From Pyrobaculum oguniense TE7 (GTDB lineage Archaea; Thermoproteota; Thermoprotei; Thermoproteales; Thermoproteaceae), in NCBI GenBank assembly GCA_000247545.1, contig CP003316.1, forward strand, positions 1,087,233-1,151,232: a stretch of DNA of 64,000 bases. The letters run 5' to 3'. Shown here one piece after another: positions 2,589 to 13,854 of the stretch (its first letter is position 1; the number at the start of each line of letters is the position of its first letter). The position numbers and the translations under genes were made by a program. The notes beneath the pieces are model-generated. The model was given only the letters and a program-made list of their open reading frames with translations, searched no databases and was not told the origin of the DNA.

Positions 2589-3032
2589 TCAAGGCGTTGC
2601 TGAGCCGCTTATGAGCCTCTCCGCTTCTCGGATCAGCGGCTCTATTAGGGGGATCCTCGCCTTTACCTGGGAAATGTCTATCCTGACCTCGTGGAAGCCG
2701 TTTACGTGGAGGAAATATGCGGCGTCCCACGCCCGCCACACAACGTCGCCGAGCTTCTGAGCGGCCTTGTCTAGGAGGCTCACGGTCCACCTCCCTCTGT
2801 TCAGCGCCTCTTTGGCCTCGTCAAGCCCCCTCGCAAAGGTCAAGGCCTTGACGGCCTCCTCCACCGCCTTGTACAACCTCTCGCTGACCTGCACCACGTC
2901 GCCCTTTTCGGCCAGCGATAGCCCCTCCCTATACGCCCTCACTGCGATCTCTGCGTGGGCCGCCGAGGCGTCTGGGGGGTCTATCTCGGAGCTCCTCGCC
3001 AAGAGGTCTACCACGTCGCCGATGTCTAGCAA
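2589..3032 (-). CDS. PaREP1-family protein
   Basis: The protein carries the PaREP1/PaREP8 hallmark pattern: a helix with LSLAEKGDVVQVSERLYKA, then EEAVKAL, a tryptophan-rich segment and the closing helix HVNGFHE with IPLIEPLI. This family is multiplied in Pyrobaculum genomes; its helical fold resembles HEPN-like bundles and no function is established. The listed start is TTG 3032. However, the best promoter (TTATATCG at about 3092-3103 on the minus strand) points to GTG 3074, which opens the same frame but meets a TAG at 3054-3056 (codon 7). The original gene therefore probably began at 3074 and now carries a nonsense codon. Confidence 0.75.
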   Translation of the reverse strand: MLDIGDVVDLLARSSEIDPPDASAAHAEIAVRAYREGLSLAEKGDVVQVSERLYKAVEEAVKALTFARGLDEAKEALNRGRWTVSLLDKAAQKLGDVVWRAWDAAYFLHVNGFHEVRIDISQVKARIPLIEPLIREAERLISGSATP

Positions 3033-3184
3033 CCTGCTCCTCAGCGCCTTGAGCTACGCCTCAGGCACTGCCACAGGCGAATAGCGGCGTCGATATAAAT
3101 ACCTTTTGGCCGCGGCGTGGCGCCTTGGCCGGAGCAGAGGCGGACTCTTCTAAAAAGAAGGGGCAACTTATGCGGCTTGCCTGC

Positions 3185-3415
3185 CTAGTCTCTCGTCTTT
3201 CTCTGCTTGAGGATTTTTAGGTATGTCTCCCTGACGCGGGGATCCTCCAGGGCGGCCCATATTGTCCTGTAGGCTGTGTTGATGAAGTTGACGTAGGAGG
3301 CCCAATACCGCTCGTCGCCTGCGGCGGCGAGCTCCGCGTACTTCCTCAGCGCTTCTAGGTTGGCCTTTAGGTTACGCCTCCGCTCCTCATCGATACCCCA
3401 AACCTCCTCAGCCAC
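3185..3415 (-). CDS. Small charged protein, partner of upstream nucleotidyltransferase
   Basis: 76 residues, entirely helical in appearance, rich in Lys/Arg/Glu, starting at GTG 3415 inside the last codons of the upstream nucleotidyltransferase gene (49 bases of overlap). The overlap implies translational coupling and a shared job. I recognise no family. The arrangement of a small helical protein behind a nucleotidyltransferase-like protein resembles toxin-antitoxin modules, but nothing in the sequence proves which component, if either, would be toxic. Confidence 0.55.
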   Translation of the reverse strand: MAEEVWGIDEERRRNLKANLEALRKYAELAAAGDERYWASYVNFINTAYRTIWAALEDPRVRETYLKILKQRKTRD

Positions 3416-3915
3416 GTCTCTAGCTCCTCCTTGTTTATAAAATCTTTAAGCGCGTTGTACAAGAAGTGGGCGTCTTCTACGTCTTTGTCGCTTCCGAGCT
3501 TTAGCTTGTAGGCGATCTGAAGTTCGATGGGGGATATGTATATGATCCCCCCTCCCAGCTTAACCGGGACTCTGTTCTCTAGGGCATATATCTGGGGCGG
3601 TGTCCTAGGCGGCTTGACCTCAAATGTTGGGAGGAGGTTAGGCGGCTTGTAAAACCTAACAGAGGCGGTTGCGTACTCCTCTCTAAGCGCCTCACTTGAT
3701 GTCAGCAACTCGTAGCCGCATTGGCGGCACCTCTCGTAGACCTTGGCTGCGTCTCTTTCCCCAACTATCACGTCTACGTCGTCTGTTGTCCTCGGCCTGC
3801 CAAAGAGAATCGCCACGTAGCCGGACACGATTACGTATCTAAACACCTCTATACACTTGGCGAATTCCAACACCATTTTGTCCAGCTCTGTGAGCGGTCT
3901 CTTAATCTCTAACAT
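3367..3915 (-). CDS. Nucleotidyltransferase-fold protein (AbiEii/DUF6036-like)
   Basis: About 182 residues. Residues 33-52 read SGYVAILFGRPRTTDDVDV, matching the nucleotidyltransferase signature G-G/S-x-hydrophobic...R-x-T-x-D-x-D seen in AbiEii-like and DUF6036 proteins, where the two aspartates bind metal. The later segment SPIELQIAYKLKLGSDKDVEDA resembles the conserved Lys plus D/E region of these enzymes. It overlaps the small downstream gene. Related proteins act as toxins that modify RNA or as antitoxins, but the true substrate cannot be read from sequence. Confidence 0.65.
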   Translation of the reverse strand: MLEIKRPLTELDKMVLEFAKCIEVFRYVIVSGYVAILFGRPRTTDDVDVIVGERDAAKVYERCRQCGYELLTSSEALREEYATASVRFYKPPNLLPTFEVKPPRTPPQIYALENRVPVKLGGGIIYISPIELQIAYKLKLGSDKDVEDAHFLYNALKDFINKEELETWLRRFGVSMRSGGVT

Positions 3916-6148: not shown

Positions 6149-6199
6149 ATGACAGAGGGGCGGCGTGTGGCAGGCTGTATTAGGCTATGGGCGGTCTAA
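6149..6199 (+). other. Possible 16-codon upstream ORF overlapping the cobY start
   Basis: A TATA-like TTTTTAAAAA at 6120-6130 predicts transcription starting near 6149, where an ATG opens a 16-residue frame (MTEGRRVAGCIRLWAV) ending at TAA 6197-6199, 13 bases inside the following cobY frame. Most genes here are leaderless, so the first ATG at the RNA end should be the one used, which would leave cobY to be reached by re-initiation. It may simply be chance; no known peptide matches. Confidence 0.3.
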
Positions 6200-7032
6200 C
6201 CGCTGTGATTATGGCGGGTGGGAGGGGGCGGCGGGCTGGCGACCCAGAGAAGTGCTTGTGGCCGCTGTGCGGCGTTCCGCTCCTCTTCAGGGTCGCCGGC
6301 GCCCTGGCGCAGGTTGCGGATAAAATCGTCGTGCTCACTACGCCTACTCACCGTCGCGTTGCGAAATACGCTGCGGAGTGGGGGCTGGAAGTCGCCTACA
6401 CTCCAGGTGTTGGCTACGAAAGGGATTTCATATACGCAACCCGATATGCCCCCGCCGTCGTGGCGGCGTGCGACTTGGCCAACCTCACCCCAGGCCACGT
6501 GGAGAAGCTCCTGGCGCACGAGGTCTTCGCCACCGCCGTGTCTCAGGGCGGCTACCCAGGCTTGTCCTACTTGCCCACCCCCCGGCTCGACCGCTGGGTG
6601 GACGTCGACGTGGGCGCCGTCGTCGATGTAGATACGCCGGAGGATTTAGAGAGGGCAAAGGAGGATTGCCCAGTGGCGTACCCCCTATACGTGCCCACCT
6701 CCAAGCTGAGGCCCCACGAGGAGGTCCTAGAGGAGAGGACGTACCAGAGGGTGCGGCCCATCGCCGTGGACTACAAGTCTGGAATTATCCTAGACGGCCA
6801 CCACCGCTTCGCCTTCCTCAAGAAGCTGGAAGTCGCCCCCATACTCCTCTTCGACTACGACGTGGTAGACGTCAACGTAGACAAGAAGACGGTGATTGAA
6901 GCCGCGGAGACGGGCCGCCTAATGCCGCCTAAGACTACGTGGCATACCTACAAGGGGCGCCACGTTTCGCAAATACCCACTGTCGAGGTGCCAGTCGATT
7001 ACTTGGCCAAGCTGAGAAGCCGCTTCCGCTGA
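6187..7032 (+). CDS. cobY: CobY-type GTP:adenosylcobinamide-phosphate guanylyltransferase fused to a SerK/ParB-like kinase domain
   Basis: Residues 1-155 form a nucleotidyltransferase domain: it opens with AVIMAGGRGRR, the GTP-binding loop of CobY/MobA-type enzymes, and contains VDVDVGAVVDVDTPEDL near its end. CobY converts adenosylcobinamide phosphate to adenosylcobinamide-GDP in archaea. Residues 165-281 form a second domain with SKLRPHEEV, GIILDGHHRFAFLKKL and GRLMPPKTTWH. These motifs belong to the SerK/SbnI branch of ParB-like proteins, which phosphorylate free serine. In a cobalamin context the parallel substrate would be L-threonine, whose phosphate is used by CobD encoded at 11347. 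The kinase role is inference. The start at ATG 6187 is preceded by a short overlapping upstream ORF. Confidence 0.85.
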   Translation: MGGLTAVIMAGGRGRRAGDPEKCLWPLCGVPLLFRVAGALAQVADKIVVLTTPTHRRVAKYAAEWGLEVAYTPGVGYERDFIYATRYAPAVVAACDLANLTPGHVEKLLAHEVFATAVSQGGYPGLSYLPTPRLDRWVDVDVGAVVDVDTPEDLERAKEDCPVAYPLYVPTSKLRPHEEVLEERTYQRVRPIAVDYKSGIILDGHHRFAFLKKLEVAPILLFDYDVVDVNVDKKTVIEAAETGRLMPPKTTWHTYKGRHVSQIPTVEVPVDYLAKLRSRFR

Positions 7033-7354: not shown

Positions 7355-7858
7355 TTACCAGTCCAGCCCCCTTACGGCTACGGCGCCTTTTTCGTAGTAG
7401 TGCTTCTCGGCCTCGACCCTAGTGACGAGGTCGAAAAGCTCTGCGAGCTGCGGCTCCCAGTAGTTCCCAGTCGCCACTAGGTGGGCCTCAACGCCTCTTA
7501 TCTTTACCAAGTCGGCCGGCCTCAGAAACCCCTGCCTAACCGCGTAGAGCACCTCGTCCAGTATCACCACGTCGTAGTTGTCCGCGGCCTCCAGCGCGTA
7601 TTCATACAAAAGCTTAGGGTTTCCGATATCGGTGAGGTAGAGGGTGTGGATGCCCAGCCTTCTCATCGCCTTGTACTCCCCCACCTCCTCCTGTTGGTAG
7701 TACGGAGTTTTCATAACGCCGGCGTACAGCACCCTTAGGCCGTGCCCTGCCGCCCTAAGCGCTATACCCAGAGCGGCTGAGGTTTTCCCCTTCCCACCGC
7801 CGTGGAAAGCAAGCCTCATGGCCCCAGTCCCGTCTCTGCATATATACCCATCGGCCAC
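7355..7858 (-). CDS. cobO: Corrinoid adenosyltransferase CobO/BtuR family
   Basis: The enzyme transfers the adenosyl group of ATP to the cobalt of cob(I)yrinic acid diamide or cobinamide. 167 residues, normal for the family. The P-loop GGGKGKTS at residues 20-27 is the shifted Walker A of CobA/CobO, and YDVVILDEVLYAV is the Walker B-like segment with the conserved Asp-Glu. Start GTG 7858 lies just after the cbiS stop, so it is read as the third gene of a cobT-cbiS-cobO operon; ATG 7819 is an alternative start. Family identity is clear. Confidence 0.92.
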   Translation of the reverse strand: MADGYICRDGTGAMRLAFHGGGKGKTSAALGIALRAAGHGLRVLYAGVMKTPYYQQEEVGEYKAMRRLGIHTLYLTDIGNPKLLYEYALEAADNYDVVILDEVLYAVRQGFLRPADLVKIRGVEAHLVATGNYWEPQLAELFDLVTRVEAEKHYYEKGAVAVRGLDW

Positions 7859-7859
7859 C

Positions 7860-8861
7860 TCAGCCGGGAGAGTACTTCTTCCTGTATAGGCTTAGGTAGA
7901 CGCCAGCTATCAGCGCCGACAACACGTCGTCGCTGAACATGGGCAGTTCGGGAAAGGCCCCCCTCTTCTTTAGCCTCTCCACCCAGTACGTGGCCAACAC
8001 TGCGTTGAAGCCGCCGAGGTAGTCGGCGAGGGCGACCCCCAGCAGTTCGTCTGCAACGACGCGGGCCGTGTCGGCTCTGTACTCCTCCGCGGCGAGGCCC
8101 GGTATCGCGCCGGCGGCTCCCAAGGCGTCTAGCTCCGCGGCGGCGAGGATGAGAGCCCAGACATTTGGGTCCTTCAAGACGTTGTCCAGAGCCTCAGCGA
8201 TTTCTCCATCAGACACGGGGAGGGGCGCCTTCTCCAGCGCCTTCTTGAAGATGCTTATAAACTCCTCCCTCTTGACCAACACCCTCTCGAAGAGGTCGAA
8301 ATTATCCCCCCTCCTCACTAGGCTGTACACCAGCCGTGAGGCTCTTCTCCCAAGCTCCGTGGCGGGGCCGGCGAAGTGCACCTCCTCTGGCTTGTCAGCC
8401 GGCACGAGGACGGCAACGGCGTCTGTGACCGTCCCGCCCGCACGGCGTCCGTTGCACCTAAGTAGCGAGTCCACCGCGGCTACGCACTTGGCCTCCACCG
8501 CCGTCCGCAAGAGGTCAGCCATCCCCCACCTAGAGAGCGGCGCGTTGGCGATGACCGCCACGTTTATTGTGCCTACGCAAGACGGCGGCGTCATGGCCAC
8601 CGTGGCGGCGGCGGCCACGGGCCCCTCCTCCGCGTAGGAAAAGGCCTCGGGAAGTTCCGCCGCTGTGAGGAAGACAACGGCGGGGGCGCCCACCTCCCGC
8701 CCTATGCCCTCTGCGTATTTTAAGTAATCGCCGTCGAAATCCCTCGCCACTTGGGCGAAGGCGACTGCCTCAACAACCGGCGGGGCTGGCAGTGTGGAAA
8801 GCGCCCTGTGAGGGCCGCCCAGCCAAAGCACCGCCCTTCCCCTAGATGTCTCCACCCTCAT
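7860..8861 (-). CDS. cbiS: CbiS: adenosylcobinamide amidohydrolase fused to alpha-ribazole-phosphate phosphatase
   Basis: 333 residues with two parts. Residues 1-180 are CbiZ-like: VGTINVAVIANAPL, VEAKCVAAVDSL and GTVTDAVAV are the conserved blocks of the hydrolase that cuts the aminopropanol arm from adenosylcobinamide so that it can be salvaged as cobyric acid. Residues 200-333 resemble CobZ/PgpA-type phosphatases (DELLGVALADYLGGFNAV, VYLSLY). That phosphatase removes the 5'-phosphate from alpha-ribazole phosphate or the final nucleotide. The same fusion was characterised in Methanopyrus as CbiS. Start ATG 8861 lies 13 bases after the cobT stop; the longer open frame upstream is an artefact overlapping cobT. 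Confidence 0.87.
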   Translation of the reverse strand: MRVETSRGRAVLWLGGPHRALSTLPAPPVVEAVAFAQVARDFDGDYLKYAEGIGREVGAPAVVFLTAAELPEAFSYAEEGPVAAAATVAMTPPSCVGTINVAVIANAPLSRWGMADLLRTAVEAKCVAAVDSLLRCNGRRAGGTVTDAVAVLVPADKPEEVHFAGPATELGRRASRLVYSLVRRGDNFDLFERVLVKREEFISIFKKALEKAPLPVSDGEIAEALDNVLKDPNVWALILAAAELDALGAAGAIPGLAAEEYRADTARVVADELLGVALADYLGGFNAVLATYWVERLKKRGAFPELPMFSDDVLSALIAGVYLSLYRKKYSPG

Positions 8862-8874
8862 CAGCCTCGGAGCC

Positions 8875-9867
8875 TTATCGCGTGGCCGTAACCCTCTCGT
8901 ACTCGGCCTCGACGAGGGGGAGGACGTCTCTCCCCACCAGCTGGGCGTAGAACAAGGCGCCGCCCATCCCCACGCCCTCCTTGACGTAGCCCTCCTCGTA
9001 CGCCCTAAGCCCCGGGTGCTTAGACGCGGCAAAGCTCACGTTAGCCACGTGGACGTTCCTCACCCCTACCTCCTCCATAAGTCCCCAGAAGTCGGCGTTT
9101 TTATCCTCGGCAATCCACCTAGTTGTGACTACATGGAGCTTGGACATCTCACCCCCAAGCGCCTTGTACAGCGCCGCGGCGGCCGCCATCTGGGTGCCGC
9201 CGGCGAGAACAGGCGCCCCACCGCCCTCCGCAACCCCCAGCGCCACCGCCGCCAAGGCGAGGTGGACGGGATCGCCCACTTGTCTCGCCGCCTCGAGGGG
9301 GTCTAAAGGCCGTCCAGCCCTCTCCAGGGCCTTCTTCACCACTGCGGCTTTCAACTCCTTTGGGTTATTGGGCGATGCCGAGCTCGTCCGGCCCCACGCG
9401 TCGTAGCCAAGCGCCACTAGTATCGCCATGGCCGTGGTGGTGCCGCCGGGTATGCTCTCCCCGATGTAAACGACGCCCAGTCTCCCCAGCTCCCTCCCCA
9501 AAATCTGCCCCCTCTTGACGATGTTTCCTGCAGCATCGCGGCTTATCGCGGAGAAGAAGCGGATATCCCTCCCCGGTTCTCCCCCCAGCTCCACATACGG
9601 CACCTTTGGCGCCCACCTGCTCCCCGCGTTTACCACCAGCTTGGGCACGTCATACGCCACCGCCCTAGTGACAAGCGCCGGTGTGGGGATGCCTTGTGGC
9701 GTCACCGGTATCACGTCAAGCGTAAGCGGCCTGCCCGCAATTAGGTACTCCACGTCCAGCGCAGGCGTCAAGTGGGTCAGCTCTGGAGAAGCTCCCGCCA
9801 CTGAGATGCCTGGTATGAGCGACACGTCGGTGGTTCCTATCACCACGACGAATATAGAGGGCCTCAT
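8875..9867 (-). CDS. cobT: Archaeal CobT-like nicotinate-nucleotide phosphoribosyltransferase
   Basis: About 330 residues of the archaeal branch of CobT (TIGR00303/UPF0284 type). The family is thought to make the alpha-ribazole phosphate used for the lower ligand. Recognisable blocks are GAVGSxSPEL-like LIPGISVAGASPELT near the start, IGESIPGGTTTAMAIL, and VLAGGTQMAAAAALY. Two starts are close: GTG 9873 and ATG 9867. The TATA box shared with the opposite operon is centred at about 9892, 25 bases from ATG 9867, so I choose that one. First gene of the cobT-cbiS-cobO operon. The catalytic residues of bacterial CobT are not readily aligned by eye. Confidence 0.85.
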   Translation of the reverse strand: MRPSIFVVVIGTTDVSLIPGISVAGASPELTHLTPALDVEYLIAGRPLTLDVIPVTPQGIPTPALVTRAVAYDVPKLVVNAGSRWAPKVPYVELGGEPGRDIRFFSAISRDAAGNIVKRGQILGRELGRLGVVYIGESIPGGTTTAMAILVALGYDAWGRTSSASPNNPKELKAAVVKKALERAGRPLDPLEAARQVGDPVHLALAAVALGVAEGGGAPVLAGGTQMAAAAALYKALGGEMSKLHVVTTRWIAEDKNADFWGLMEEVGVRNVHVANVSFAASKHPGLRAYEEGYVKEGVGMGGALFYAQLVGRDVLPLVEAEYERVTATR

Positions 9868-9886
9868 GACCACTAAAAACTCGACA

Positions 9887-9915: not shown

Positions 9916-10542
9916 ATGAACCTGAAGAGCGGAGGCCTAAAAGTGGCGATGTACAGCGGGGGGAAAGAGAGCGTTTACGCCGCGTTGCTGGAATGGCCCG
10001 TTGACCTCTTCCTGTTCCTCGTCTACGACTTCCCGAGGCCTTCCCCCCATATAGTGAACATAGGCCCGGCCGTGAGGTTCGGCTCTCTGCTCGCCCCAGT
10101 GCTGGTCAAGAAGCTGACCCGGGGCAGAGAGCTTGAGGAGAAGGCAGAGCTGCTGAGACGGCTCGGCGCCGCTGTGATAGTGGCAGGCGATGTTGACGTA
10201 GAGGAACACCTCAAGTACATGGAGAAGCTCGCCGCGTTGGCCGGCGCCTCTTTAAAAGAGCCGCTCTGGGGCATAGACCACGAGGAGTTGTTATACAAGG
10301 AGGTCGAGGAGCTAGACTTCATCGTGATAGGAGCCTCTAGGAGGGAGCTCCTCTGCCGCCGAGTCGGTAGAGATAACGCAAATGAATTCGCCGAGTTGGC
10401 CAAATCGCTGGGTGTTGACGTGCTAGGGGAGAGGGGGGAATACCACAGCCAAGTCGTAGCGGTGAAGAGGCTTGGCGCTACGGCGGAGCTGTCGTGTAAA
10501 GACGTCGTTGAAGTAGGCGGATACCACATCGCCGTGCTATGA
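9916..10542 (+). CDS. DUF71/COG2102 ATP pyrophosphatase, B12-associated branch
   Basis: 208 residues. The PP-loop SGGKES is at residues 14-19. The C-terminal signature reads GERGEYHS at about 171-178, whereas the diphthamide enzyme encoded at 40571 in this window has GEGGEYES. Comparative genomics of DUF71 predicted a separate subgroup linked to B12 salvage; the divergent motif and the position here, first in an operon with cobD, cobS and cbiB, fit that subgroup. Such enzymes activate a carboxylate as an adenylate for amidation. The exact substrate is unknown. The next gene starts within its stop codon (ATGA). Confidence 0.75.
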   Translation: MNLKSGGLKVAMYSGGKESVYAALLEWPVDLFLFLVYDFPRPSPHIVNIGPAVRFGSLLAPVLVKKLTRGRELEEKAELLRRLGAAVIVAGDVDVEEHLKYMEKLAALAGASLKEPLWGIDHEELLYKEVEELDFIVIGASRRELLCRRVGRDNANEFAELAKSLGVDVLGERGEYHSQVVAVKRLGATAELSCKDVVEVGGYHIAVL

Positions 10543-11363
10543 TCCTTAAGCTTCTCTCTAAATACGCCGACTGCGACTCCATATTACTGTCCGGAGGGGT
10601 TGACTCCTCAGCCGTCGCCGCGGCAACAGTCGCCCGGGGATCTAGGCCCCTTGGCGTAGTGGTCTCGCTCCGGGGGTGTAGGTCGGACCTCCCCTACGCC
10701 GCCGTTGTCTCCAGCAAGCTCTCTATCCCCCTCTCTGCGAGGATTGTGGAGAGGGGCGAGGCTGTGAGGGCAGCCGAGGAGGTAGTGGGGATCCTCAAGG
10801 TGTTTAACCCCATGGAGGTGGTGAACTGCGCCGTCGTGTACCTCGGCCTCTCCCACGCCGCGTCTTTAGGCGCGCACAGGGTGTGCACAGGTGACGGCGG
10901 TGACGAGCTGTTTCTCGGATACGACTTTTTCCGCAGAAGCCGCGATTTGGAGAGGACGAGGCATGATGTAGTTGGGAGGTGGCGCTTTTGTAGCTTCGAT
11001 ATCGGAAAGGCCCTAGGCGTAGAGGTAATCGCCCCCTTCACCCAGAGGGAGGTGGTGGAATACGCACTCTCTATACCCGCCGAGCTGGCCCTCGGAAAGA
11101 GACCGCTTAGGGAGGAGTTATCCGCCATATTGCCCGAGGTTGCGGCTAGAGAGAAGACGCCGTTGGAGAGGGGAAGTTGCTTCGACTTCCTCTACGACGA
11201 GTTTAGGAGGAAGGCAGGAGATGAGGTGGCCTACTTAAAGGCAGTTTTCGAGAGGATTGGGTTGAACTACCCCACGTCGCTTACCGGCTGTCCGCGTTGC
11301 GGATACGCGGGATTTGACGGGAGGTATTGCCCCATGTGCGGCTACTATGCACGGGGGGACTAG
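10539..11363 (+). CDS. Asparagine-synthase-like ATP pyrophosphatase with C-terminal zinc ribbon
   Basis: 274 residues. The synthetase-domain PP-loop LSGGVDSS is at residues 17-24 and the second conserved block GDGGDELFLGY at 118-128, as in asparagine synthetase B. The N-terminal glutaminase domain is absent. The C-terminus carries C251-x2-C254 and C264-x2-C267, a small zinc ribbon. It overlaps the DUF71 gene by 4 bases and cobD by 17, so its product is made together with nucleotide-loop enzymes. An amide-forming or adenylating step in corrinoid assembly or salvage is a reasonable guess; a true asparagine synthetase would be an odd passenger here. Confidence 0.75.
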   Translation: MILKLLSKYADCDSILLSGGVDSSAVAAATVARGSRPLGVVVSLRGCRSDLPYAAVVSSKLSIPLSARIVERGEAVRAAEEVVGILKVFNPMEVVNCAVVYLGLSHAASLGAHRVCTGDGGDELFLGYDFFRRSRDLERTRHDVVGRWRFCSFDIGKALGVEVIAPFTQREVVEYALSIPAELALGKRPLREELSAILPEVAAREKTPLERGSCFDFLYDEFRRKAGDEVAYLKAVFERIGLNYPTSLTGCPRCGYAGFDGRYCPMCGYYARGD

Positions 11364-12252
11364 CTGGAGGGATCCGCCAGTTTTAGATTTCAGCGACAAT
11401 TCAAACCCTCTGGGACCACCCCAAGCGCTCACTGCGCTTATAAAAGAGGCGGTGGAGAGGGGCGTCTACTTAAAATTCCCTGCAAACGCCGCCGAGGAGG
11501 TCTTGGCGGAGTACGAAGGGATCGACGTCGTGGCCTTCAACGGGGCGACTGAGGCGTTGACTGCGCTGATGGCGTACTTAAAGCCTAAGCGCGTGTTGGT
11601 GGAGTGGCCTAACTACACGGACTACAGCCGCATCGCCTCTCTGCTGGGTTTGCAGTGGAGGCACGCACGTGGCCCGGAGGAGGCTACCGCGGGCGACCTC
11701 TACGTAGTGTCAAACCCCAACAACCCCACTGGGCGCTACTTGAAGCGGGGCGAGCTGGCGGAGCTGGCAAAGCGGCTGGCGGCTAGGGGGGCCAAGCTCC
11801 TGGTAGACGAGTCCTTTATAGACTTCGTTGGAGGCGAAACCGCGGCGCCCGACGTCCCCGTGGCTAAGTCCTACGGCAAGCTTCTAGCGGCGCCGGGTCT
11901 GAGGGTGGGCGCAGTGCTTGGGATGAGGGACGAGCGGCTTATGGCTCCGTGGCGCCTAAACTCTATCGCCGATTTCGCCGTATACCACCTAGGCGCTGAT
12001 GGTCTTAGGAAGCACCGCGCCGCCACGGTGGCCTATGTGGCTGAGGAATCGCCGAGGGTGCAGAGGGAGGTGTCAAAATGTGCGGAGGTGAATCCCTCGC
12101 CGGTACACTTCTTCATAGTCAAGGGGCCCACCCCCCGGGGGGTCAAGGTGCGGCCTCTGGAGGACCACGGAATCCCCGGCTACAGGGTGTCCATAAGGAC
12201 GCCCGAGTTGAACAGAATTTTGGTAGAGGCTATCTGCCGTGAGGTGCGTTAA
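11347..12252 (+). CDS. cobD: L-threonine-O-3-phosphate decarboxylase CobD (PLP enzyme)
   Basis: 301 residues from ATG 11347, chosen because CobD proteins begin HGG...LDFSxNxNPLGPP, exactly what follows this ATG (MHGGTSWRDPP, then LDFSDNSNPLGPP). The PLP-binding lysine is K178 in KSYGKLLAAPGLRVG, and SNPNNPTG is the aspartate-aminotransferase fold I signature. The enzyme makes (R)-1-amino-2-propanol phosphate, which CbiB attaches to cobyric acid. Its start overlaps the preceding stop region and its end overlaps cobS. Histidinol-phosphate aminotransferase is the closest alternative but the N-terminus and context favour CobD. Confidence 0.88.
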   Translation: MHGGTSWRDPPVLDFSDNSNPLGPPQALTALIKEAVERGVYLKFPANAAEEVLAEYEGIDVVAFNGATEALTALMAYLKPKRVLVEWPNYTDYSRIASLLGLQWRHARGPEEATAGDLYVVSNPNNPTGRYLKRGELAELAKRLAARGAKLLVDESFIDFVGGETAAPDVPVAKSYGKLLAAPGLRVGAVLGMRDERLMAPWRLNSIADFAVYHLGADGLRKHRAATVAYVAEESPRVQREVSKCAEVNPSPVHFFIVKGPTPRGVKVRPLEDHGIPGYRVSIRTPELNRILVEAICREVR

Positions 12253-12895
12253 GTCACTCATCGCCTTCTTCACCGCATATCCCGTCGGCGGTGGGGAGCT
12301 GAGCTTTAAATGCGTGTGGGCCTTGCCATACCTCGTCGCGCCCCTCGTGGCGGCCCCCTCTGCGCTGCTCCTCTATCTCGGCATTAGCCCCGTCCTCGCT
12401 TACATCGCCCTAGTCGCGGCAACGGGCCTCCACCACCTGGACGGCCTCGCGGACGTTGCCGACGCGCTTATGGTAAGGGATAAGACGAGAGCTAGGGAGG
12501 TTCTGGATGACCCCAGAAAGGGAACTGCTGGCGTTTTCGCCGTGGTCGCCGCGATCGCCGTGGCCTCGTACCACCTCTCGGAGCCGGCGCAGGCGGCGGC
12601 CTCGGAGGTTTTCTCCAAGGCAGCGACGCTCCTCTTCGCCGGCTTCAGTAAGCCCTTTAAGCCGGGGCTCGGCGAGGCCTTTACCTACGTTGCGAGGAGG
12701 CAGTGGCCCGCCGCCATTCCGGCGCTTGTAGCCCTAGCCATCATCAAGCCGGCATCCTTCGCCGCTACGCTTGTGGTGAGCCTCGCGCTGTACTGGGTAG
12801 CGTATAGGCACCTCGGAGGCGCAAACGGCGATGTCTACGGCTACCTCCTCGAAGTGGCCAGGGTATCCTACATAGCTGCATGGAGCCTTGGCTGA
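12239..12895 (+). CDS. cobS: Adenosylcobinamide-GDP ribazoletransferase CobS
   Basis: Integral membrane enzyme that joins adenosylcobinamide-GDP to alpha-ribazole (phosphate), the last assembly step. 218 residues with several hydrophobic helices. The family signature HHLDGLADVADAL is at about residues 65-77, and the closing GGANGDVYGYLLE block is present. GTG 12239 lies inside the end of cobD; the stop overlaps cbiB. Length is slightly under the usual 240-250 but the conserved blocks are all seen. Confidence 0.9.
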   Translation: MRCVKSLIAFFTAYPVGGGELSFKCVWALPYLVAPLVAAPSALLLYLGISPVLAYIALVAATGLHHLDGLADVADALMVRDKTRAREVLDDPRKGTAGVFAVVAAIAVASYHLSEPAQAAASEVFSKAATLLFAGFSKPFKPGLGEAFTYVARRQWPAAIPALVALAIIKPASFAATLVVSLALYWVAYRHLGGANGDVYGYLLEVARVSYIAAWSLG

Positions 12896-13854
12896 AAGCC
12901 GTCGCGGAAGCCTATCTGTGGCTAGCGACTTGTGCGCTCGTTCTGGCAATGCCTAGTCACAGCCCGCTCCTCTCGCCAGACCCAACAGCGTTATTATTTG
13001 CGCTGGTGCTGGAGGCGGCGGACTTTCCCGCGAAATGGGACAACTACCTTGTCTCCAGACTTATCCCCCCGCGAGTCCATCCGGTGGCGTTGATATACGC
13101 GCTGGGCGCCTTCGTCATGCGGAGGTCGAGAGGTGTCCTAGGCGGCGTGGTCGTGTTGGCCGCAGTAACGCTTCCAATGACTACGGCGGCGATCGCCTTC
13201 AGGCTTGTGAGAGGCGACGAGATATACTGGTCCCTAGCCGAGGGCTACCTCCTCAAGCTATCCTTCTCCATTACCCACGTCACGTATGGATGTGCTTTGG
13301 GATACATCAAAGGCGAGGCATGTTGGGCTGTATCCCAGTTCGTGCGGCGAGACCTATCCGCGTGTAGACGAGAATTGGTCAACAGCGCGTGTATCGAGGC
13401 AGCGGCAGAGTCGTTGGTAGACTCCTACGTCTCTACGCTGTTCTGGTACGGCGTGTTGGGGCTTCCCGGCGCGTGGCTCCAGCGCTCCGTCAACACAGCA
13501 GATGGCCTAGCCGGCTTTAGGCACCACGGCCCCCTAGGCGCCCCGTCGGCGTATGCCGACACGGCGTTGAACTGGGCCCCGGCGAGAGCGACGGCCGCGC
13601 TACTGCTGGCTACATCGCTTAAGGCTCCTGGCGCGTTGCTATACATGTCCGCGTTGCCTAGCCCAAATGCGAGGTGGCCCATATCAGCGGCGGCGGCCGC
13701 CGTAGGCGCAGGAGTAGAAAAGGAGGGGGCGTACCGAATCCCGGGCCCCCGCCCCCACGAAGTCGATGTGATTAACGCGTTGGGAGTAGCCCACGCCGCG
13801 GCCGCTCTGTGGGCCTTGTTGATGGCCGTCAGCCTGCCGCTAAAGTTTATATGA
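12880..13854 (+). CDS. cbiB: Adenosylcobinamide-phosphate synthase CbiB
   Basis: 324-residue membrane protein. Family blocks: AAAESLVDSYVSTLFWYGVLG, then VNTADGLAGFRHHGP and LNWAPARATA. These correspond to the conserved N-x-x-D, NTxDxMxG and LNxxPAR motifs of CbiB. The enzyme condenses adenosylcobyric acid with aminopropanol phosphate. Last gene of the five-gene overlapping operon that begins at 9916. Start ATG 12880 overlaps the end of cobS by 16 bases. Confidence 0.88.
   Translation: MEPWLKAVAEAYLWLATCALVLAMPSHSPLLSPDPTALLFALVLEAADFPAKWDNYLVSRLIPPRVHPVALIYALGAFVMRRSRGVLGGVVVLAAVTLPMTTAAIAFRLVRGDEIYWSLAEGYLLKLSFSITHVTYGCALGYIKGEACWAVSQFVRRDLSACRRELVNSACIEAAAESLVDSYVSTLFWYGVLGLPGAWLQRSVNTADGLAGFRHHGPLGAPSAYADTALNWAPARATAALLLATSLKAPGALLYMSALPSPNARWPISAAAAAVGAGVEKEGAYRIPGPRPHEVDVINALGVAHAAAALWALLMAVSLPLKFI

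Follow-up and report, generated by a model that had tools for sequence, protein, structure and literature searches.

A SerK-like kinase domain fused to CobY in Pyrobaculum oguniense

Pyrobaculum oguniense TE7 encodes a protein in which a CobY-like guanylyltransferase is joined to a shortened relative of the free serine kinase SerK. The best reading of the SerK-like half, to which we give about an even chance, is that of an L-threonine kinase for cobalamin (B12) synthesis. The gene lies in a 64,000-nucleotide stretch of the genome (the window, to which positions given without a locus label refer). It is a single open frame of 281 codons that starts at an ATG and occupies exactly 6187-7032 on the plus strand. 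A preliminary description had placed a CobY and a SerK/ParB-like domain with the motifs PHEEV, LDGHHR and PPKTTWH in one protein. Profile and fold matches agree on both domains, and all three motifs are found in the 281-aa product. The CobY-like (AdoCbi-P guanylyltransferase) domain covers residues 1-160 (6187..6666, plus strand) with an AGGRGRR motif, followed by the SerK-like, ParB/Srx-fold kinase domain of ~119 aa at residues 163-281 (6673..7029, plus strand). The AlphaFold model of the full-length protein reaches a pLDDT of 95.3 and a pTM of 0.93. The fusion is not a chance event, because 14 genomes share this architecture in a single reading frame uninterrupted by stops. The kinship with SerK, the two-domain architecture and the cobalamin context are all firmly supported.

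The N-terminal half resembles archaeal CobY. Residues 6-123 match Pfam NTP_transf_3 (1.3e-15), and this was the only Pfam match to the protein; neither a CobU nor a GHMP domain was matched. CobY of Methanocaldococcus jannaschii (PDB 3rsb) ranks first among PDB entries by sequence (1.8e-05) and also by fold, with the full-length model as query. The AGG-G-R residues are invariant in the 14 fusions. Against NF045495, a model built for methanogen CobY, this half scores 29 bits and thus falls below the curated cut-off of 250. The fusion shares with CobY (3rsb, 2mzb) the fold, the N-terminal nucleotide motif and the location in a cobalamin cluster, but it has an extra C-terminal kinase domain. In the genome scan and the loci, the fused CobY half occurs only in the company of nucleotide-loop genes.

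The C-terminal half has the fold and the active-site motifs of SerK

Searched alone, the C-terminal half gives a weak match to the SerK equivalog model NF053625 (E = 0.003; 16.7 bits against a cut-off of 380, with just 34 model positions aligned rather than the full length). Residues 199-231 also weakly match the free serine kinase structure 5x0b (E = 0.014). A profile that combined the C-terminal halves with stand-alone relatives reached 3.3e-21 against SerK structures and 1.3e-10 against SbnI. When the domain was modeled by itself (pLDDT 96.1), its best PDB fold match was the free serine kinase 5x0g. The six top-ranking fold matches comprise free serine kinase structures and 1vk1, the P. furiosus homolog, with a best query TM of 0.70; SbnI and ParB rank behind them. 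The family-profile and fold matches rule out a chance resemblance to SerK. A ParB DNA-partition protein is likewise ruled out, since no helix-turn-helix or ParA partner was seen and the SerK active-site motifs are there.

Three motifs were compared with SerK. In the PHEE motif (6712..6723, plus strand), E178 aligns with the SerK active-site residue Glu30; structures of SerK E30A and E30Q mutants are deposited, judging by PDB titles, which indicates that those who solved SerK took E30 as an active-site residue. The DGHHR motif (6793..6807, plus strand; D203-R207) corresponds to SerK D69-R73. The PPKTTWH motif (6925..6945, plus strand; residues 247-253) has SPKTTRH as its SerK counterpart. PHE (E178) and DGHHR are invariant across the 14 fusions at identities down to ~40%. 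The third motif is PPKTTWH in eight fusions and of an LGxRxTRH type in six, with its T and H invariant. The R of SerK PKTTRH is therefore W in 8/14 and R in 6/14. We had considered this tryptophan as a threonine signature and dropped it, since the residue is R in six fusions and W also occurs in one unfused relative.

The SerK used for these comparisons is the ADP-dependent enzyme of Thermococcus kodakarensis (TK0378; 5x0b, 5x0e, 5x0g, 5x0j and 5x0k), with which the fused domain shares the ParB/Srx fold, PHE including the Glu30 equivalent, DGHHR and, in the eight fusions with PPKTTWH, PKTT-x-H. Unlike SerK, the fused domain sits in a cob cluster next to a CobY half, is only ~119 aa long and has no long middle insertion. 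Two further elements of SerK and of stand-alone relatives are missing from it, namely the helix that follows PHE and the segment at the SerK W102 position, so its pocket differs from theirs. SbnI, the SerK-related free serine kinase of Staphylococcus (5ujd, 6nr6), which was found by both family profile and fold, differs in being a long form with a regulatory part that serves a siderophore pathway.

The fusion lies in a cobalamin cluster that has a CobD-like enzyme

Beside the fusion gene, on the minus strand, are genes for a CobA/BtuR ATP:corrinoid adenosyltransferase (7355..7858; PF02572, 8.6e-30), for CbiS, a fusion of CbiZ (AdoCbi amidohydrolase) and CobZ (alpha-ribazole phosphatase) (7860..9032; NF038002, 9.4e-133, above cut-off; PF01955), and for an archaeal CobT phosphoribosyltransferase (8875..9873; TIGR00303, 2.5e-93). 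The true start of cbiS is probably near 8867. On the plus strand follow a CobD-like threonine-phosphate decarboxylase (11314..12252), CobS (12239..12895; PF02654, 1.8e-32) and the AdoCbi-P synthase CbiB (12880..13854; PF03186, 1.6e-40), and then genes that by eye resemble corrin-ring genes. The CobD-like protein has 312 aa and matches positions 14-304 of the 331 in TIGR01140 (5.4e-43, below the equivalog cut-off). The preliminary description put cobD at 11347, and an ATG of this frame indeed lies there. The CobD-like enzyme is the expected consumer of threonine phosphate. With cobA, cbiS, cobT, cobD, cobS, cbiB and cobY all present, the L-threonine kinase is the sole nucleotide-loop activity without a gene. 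Several of cobA, cobT, cobD, cobS and cbiB also lie within ~12 kb of the fusion in the loci of ten relatives.

Just before cobD, a TTX_0299-family (DUF71-like) ATP pyrophosphatase gene and an asparagine-synthase-like gene stand in tandem (9916-11363). The asparagine-synthase-like protein has no glutaminase domain and carries a zinc-ribbon-like C-terminal tail. This pair recurs in related cob clusters (L061, L062 and L065).

The fusion is kept or lost together with CobD and CbiB

We scanned 81 genomes of the class for the fusion. The full-length form is encoded by 14, all within genera g1 and g2, where it is found in 14 of the 17 sampled genomes; a named scan identifies the two genera as Pyrobaculum and Thermoproteus. 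Its carriers in the named scan are Pyrobaculum sp. WP30, one Thermoproteaceae bin and three Thermoproteus genomes. CbiB was found in 13/14 fusion genomes and a close CobD in 13/14. The exceptions are one incomplete (G074) and one fragmented (G069) genome, each of which has the other of the two genes. In the three g1 genomes without the fusion (G065, complete; G072, 96%; G070, 74%), neither CbiB nor a close CobD was found. CobD and/or CbiB is thus present in 14/14 genomes with the fusion and 0/3 without it, which would arise by chance in 1 of 680 cases if kinship is ignored, although these genomes are not phylogenetically independent. A fusion in genomes without cobD had been named as evidence against the threonine kinase role, and no fusion was found in a genome lacking both cobD and cbiB.

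A tree of 54 SerK-like domains groups the kinase halves in a single clade (support 100/99), and so the sequences indicate that the fusion most likely arose once. A degraded version of the CobY-SerK-like gene, in which each domain survives as a remnant in a different reading frame, was seen at ~2900-3900 on the minus strand of locus L240 in an incomplete draft genome of genus g3 (G079, 80%). The search of this draft revealed neither CbiB nor a close CobD.

Searches for another threonine kinase

A second dedicated threonine kinase gene had also been named as evidence against the proposed role. PduX is a GHMP kinase. As the preliminary description had proposed from the window, no PduX-type threonine kinase was found, here in the whole genome. 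Four GHMP proteins were found, and all are assigned to other substrates, being galactokinase-like, mevalonate (MvaK), shikimate (AroK) and homoserine (ThrB) kinases; they were rejected as dedicated threonine kinases. No SerK-family domain other than the fused one was found in the genome.

A missing threonine kinase is not informative alone, because sister genera g5, g7 and g8 encode CobY, CobD and CbiB and also have neither a SerK-like domain nor a PduX-type kinase. These sister genera belong to family f3, of which five genomes (G038, G049, G051, G055 and G062) have CobY, CobD, CobS or CbiB, and neither a SerK-like domain nor a PduX-type kinase was found in them. An extra GHMP protein in the sister genera was rejected as the threonine kinase: it is encoded beside panB-like genes and is a probable pantoate kinase. 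A similar protein beside panB-like genes in G065 and G078 was set aside on the same grounds.

SerK-like relatives outside the fusion

SerK-like domains are present in 277/397 genomes of the phylum and also in marine Poseidoniales. In many loci, a short stand-alone SerK-like gene lies directly upstream of a cysteine-synthase-like or cystathionine beta-synthase gene. The PLP family of the partner was confirmed in four such pairs (L071, 7904-9267; L073, 7472-9129; L077, 6673-8692; L080, 2794-4469), and similar pairs were recognized by eye in three loci (L120, 7007-8749; L128, 6986-8585; and L118). A serine-kinase form shorter than SerK appears to be common in Thermoproteota. Three genomes, all from one family of the phylum, encode SerK-like and cysteine-synthase-like PLP domains within one protein (L121, 5610-7367; L122, 7428-9221; L123, 5948-7690). 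These proteins of 581-598 aa have a second, degenerate ParB-like repeat and are probable Ser-to-Cys fusion enzymes. The published role of SerK is to provide O-phosphoserine for cysteine (PMC5120207). The cysteine-synthase-like neighbors and fusion partners would use O-phosphoserine, and therefore the precedent in this family is phosphorylation of a free amino acid.

Among the SerK-like groups, the CobY-fused clade alone is clearly tied to cobalamin. Many unfused loci in other archaea were read, and no convincing linkage to cob genes was seen except in L131 (Sulfolobales), where a CbiT-like gene lies a few genes from the SerK-like gene. L131 is one of six loci from one family, probably of Sulfolobales (with L113, L114, L116, L117 and L132), in which a SerK-like gene of ~200 aa has a conserved neighborhood of seemingly endonuclease III-like, glycosyltransferase and helicase genes; no amino-acid or cofactor context was seen in that neighborhood. 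Small SerK-like proteins (~130-160 aa) are widespread in marine Euryarchaeota, mostly Poseidoniales (Marine Group II; L138-L204), and no cob or cysteine-synthase genes were found near them.

Proposed function of the fusion and alternatives

We propose that the fusion is a bifunctional enzyme in the assembly of the B12 nucleotide loop. The C-terminal half would be a small-molecule kinase of a shortened SerK type; its most likely substrate is L-threonine and its presumed donor ADP or ATP. E178 would be its catalytic-site residue, and DGHHR would occupy the phosphate-binding position. The CobD-like enzyme would then decarboxylate threonine phosphate, and CbiB would join the aminopropanol phosphate so formed to cobyric acid. 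The CobY half is expected to transfer GMP to the resulting adenosylcobinamide phosphate. Threonine is the favored substrate because relatives set the precedent of acting on a free hydroxy-amino acid, and because the pathway is without a source of threonine phosphate. The characterized SerK rejects threonine (PMC5120207).

The threonine kinase and CobY steps are not consecutive, and so the logic of fusing them is indirect. The main alternative, which we consider unlikely but somewhat ahead of the others below, would do better on this point: if the kinase half phosphorylated adenosylcobinamide, the CobY half would guanylate the product in the next step, in the same order as in CobU. The fusion would then be an unrelated CobU equivalent for cobinamide salvage. 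The phosphate would be placed on the same secondary alcohol, CH(OH)CH3 of the aminopropanol arm, and the domain, having lost a helix and a loop close to its active site relative to stand-alone forms, could have room for a large substrate. CobU/CobP likewise combine a kinase and a guanylyltransferase of one pathway in one chain, but as one P-loop domain rather than two unrelated folds. However, 13/14 fusion genomes encode CbiZ, and so cobinamide can be salvaged without a kinase and the activity would be redundant. Moreover, free serine is the substrate of the members of this kinase family that are known, and CobD would still need threonine phosphate.

A source of that threonine phosphate could be CobD itself. 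Methanosarcina mazei MM2060 is reportedly a bifunctional archaeal CobD with L-threonine kinase activity. Bifunctional CobD is kept as an alternative because sister genera g5, g7 and g8 manage with CobD and no SerK-like domain, and the SerK-like half would then have another role or a regulatory, nucleotide-sensing one. We judge this somewhat less probable than adenosylcobinamide phosphorylation. MM2060 is said to carry a C-terminal extension, and the 312-aa CobD of the window is without it. Nucleotide binding by a ParB-fold domain need not involve catalysis (PMC12704722), but a purely structural or sensing role would not obviously require PHE and DGHHR to be invariant in 14 divergent fusions.

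Least probable is an ordinary free-serine kinase that makes O-phosphoserine and was accidentally fused to CobY, as family precedent and the cysteine-synthase-like neighbors of stand-alone relatives might suggest: presence or absence of the fusion follows that of the cobalamin pathway, the fusion sits in a cob cluster with no adjoining cysteine-synthase gene seen, and G065, a genome without any SerK-like domain, has a similarly distant cysteine-synthase-like gene.

The L-threonine kinase reading can be set against known enzymes. PduX, BluE and the M. mazei CobD (MmCobD, MM2060) are L-threonine kinases for cobamides, and the reaction proposed for the fusion is the same. The fusion differs from PduX in having no match to GHMP kinases, and from MmCobD in that the kinase is joined to CobY rather than to a decarboxylase. 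A 2020 review names PduX and BluE as the only sources of threonine phosphate (PMC7242693). We found no description of a CobY-SerK-like fusion in the literature searched, and the main text of a 2025 survey of ParB-fold fusions makes no mention of CobY, cobalamin or nucleotidyltransferase fusions. The parts are known; the union of CobY with a SerK-like kinase and the role that it implies appear to be new. An archaeal equivalent of the bifunctional CobU, if the adenosylcobinamide reading were true, would likewise be new.

The source of threonine phosphate lacks an assignment in many archaea that make B12, and the fusion offers a small (281 aa) thermophilic protein for testing. It also suggests that cofactor synthesis recruited the SerK family, whose known substrate until now was free serine. 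With just short of even confidence, we propose that Thermoproteaceae have a fourth, unrelated class of B12 L-threonine kinase, after PduX, BluE and bifunctional CobD, that arose within the SerK family and joined CobY in a single fusion event. Such a protein would phosphorylate threonine and later guanylate the same phosphate on the aminopropanol arm.
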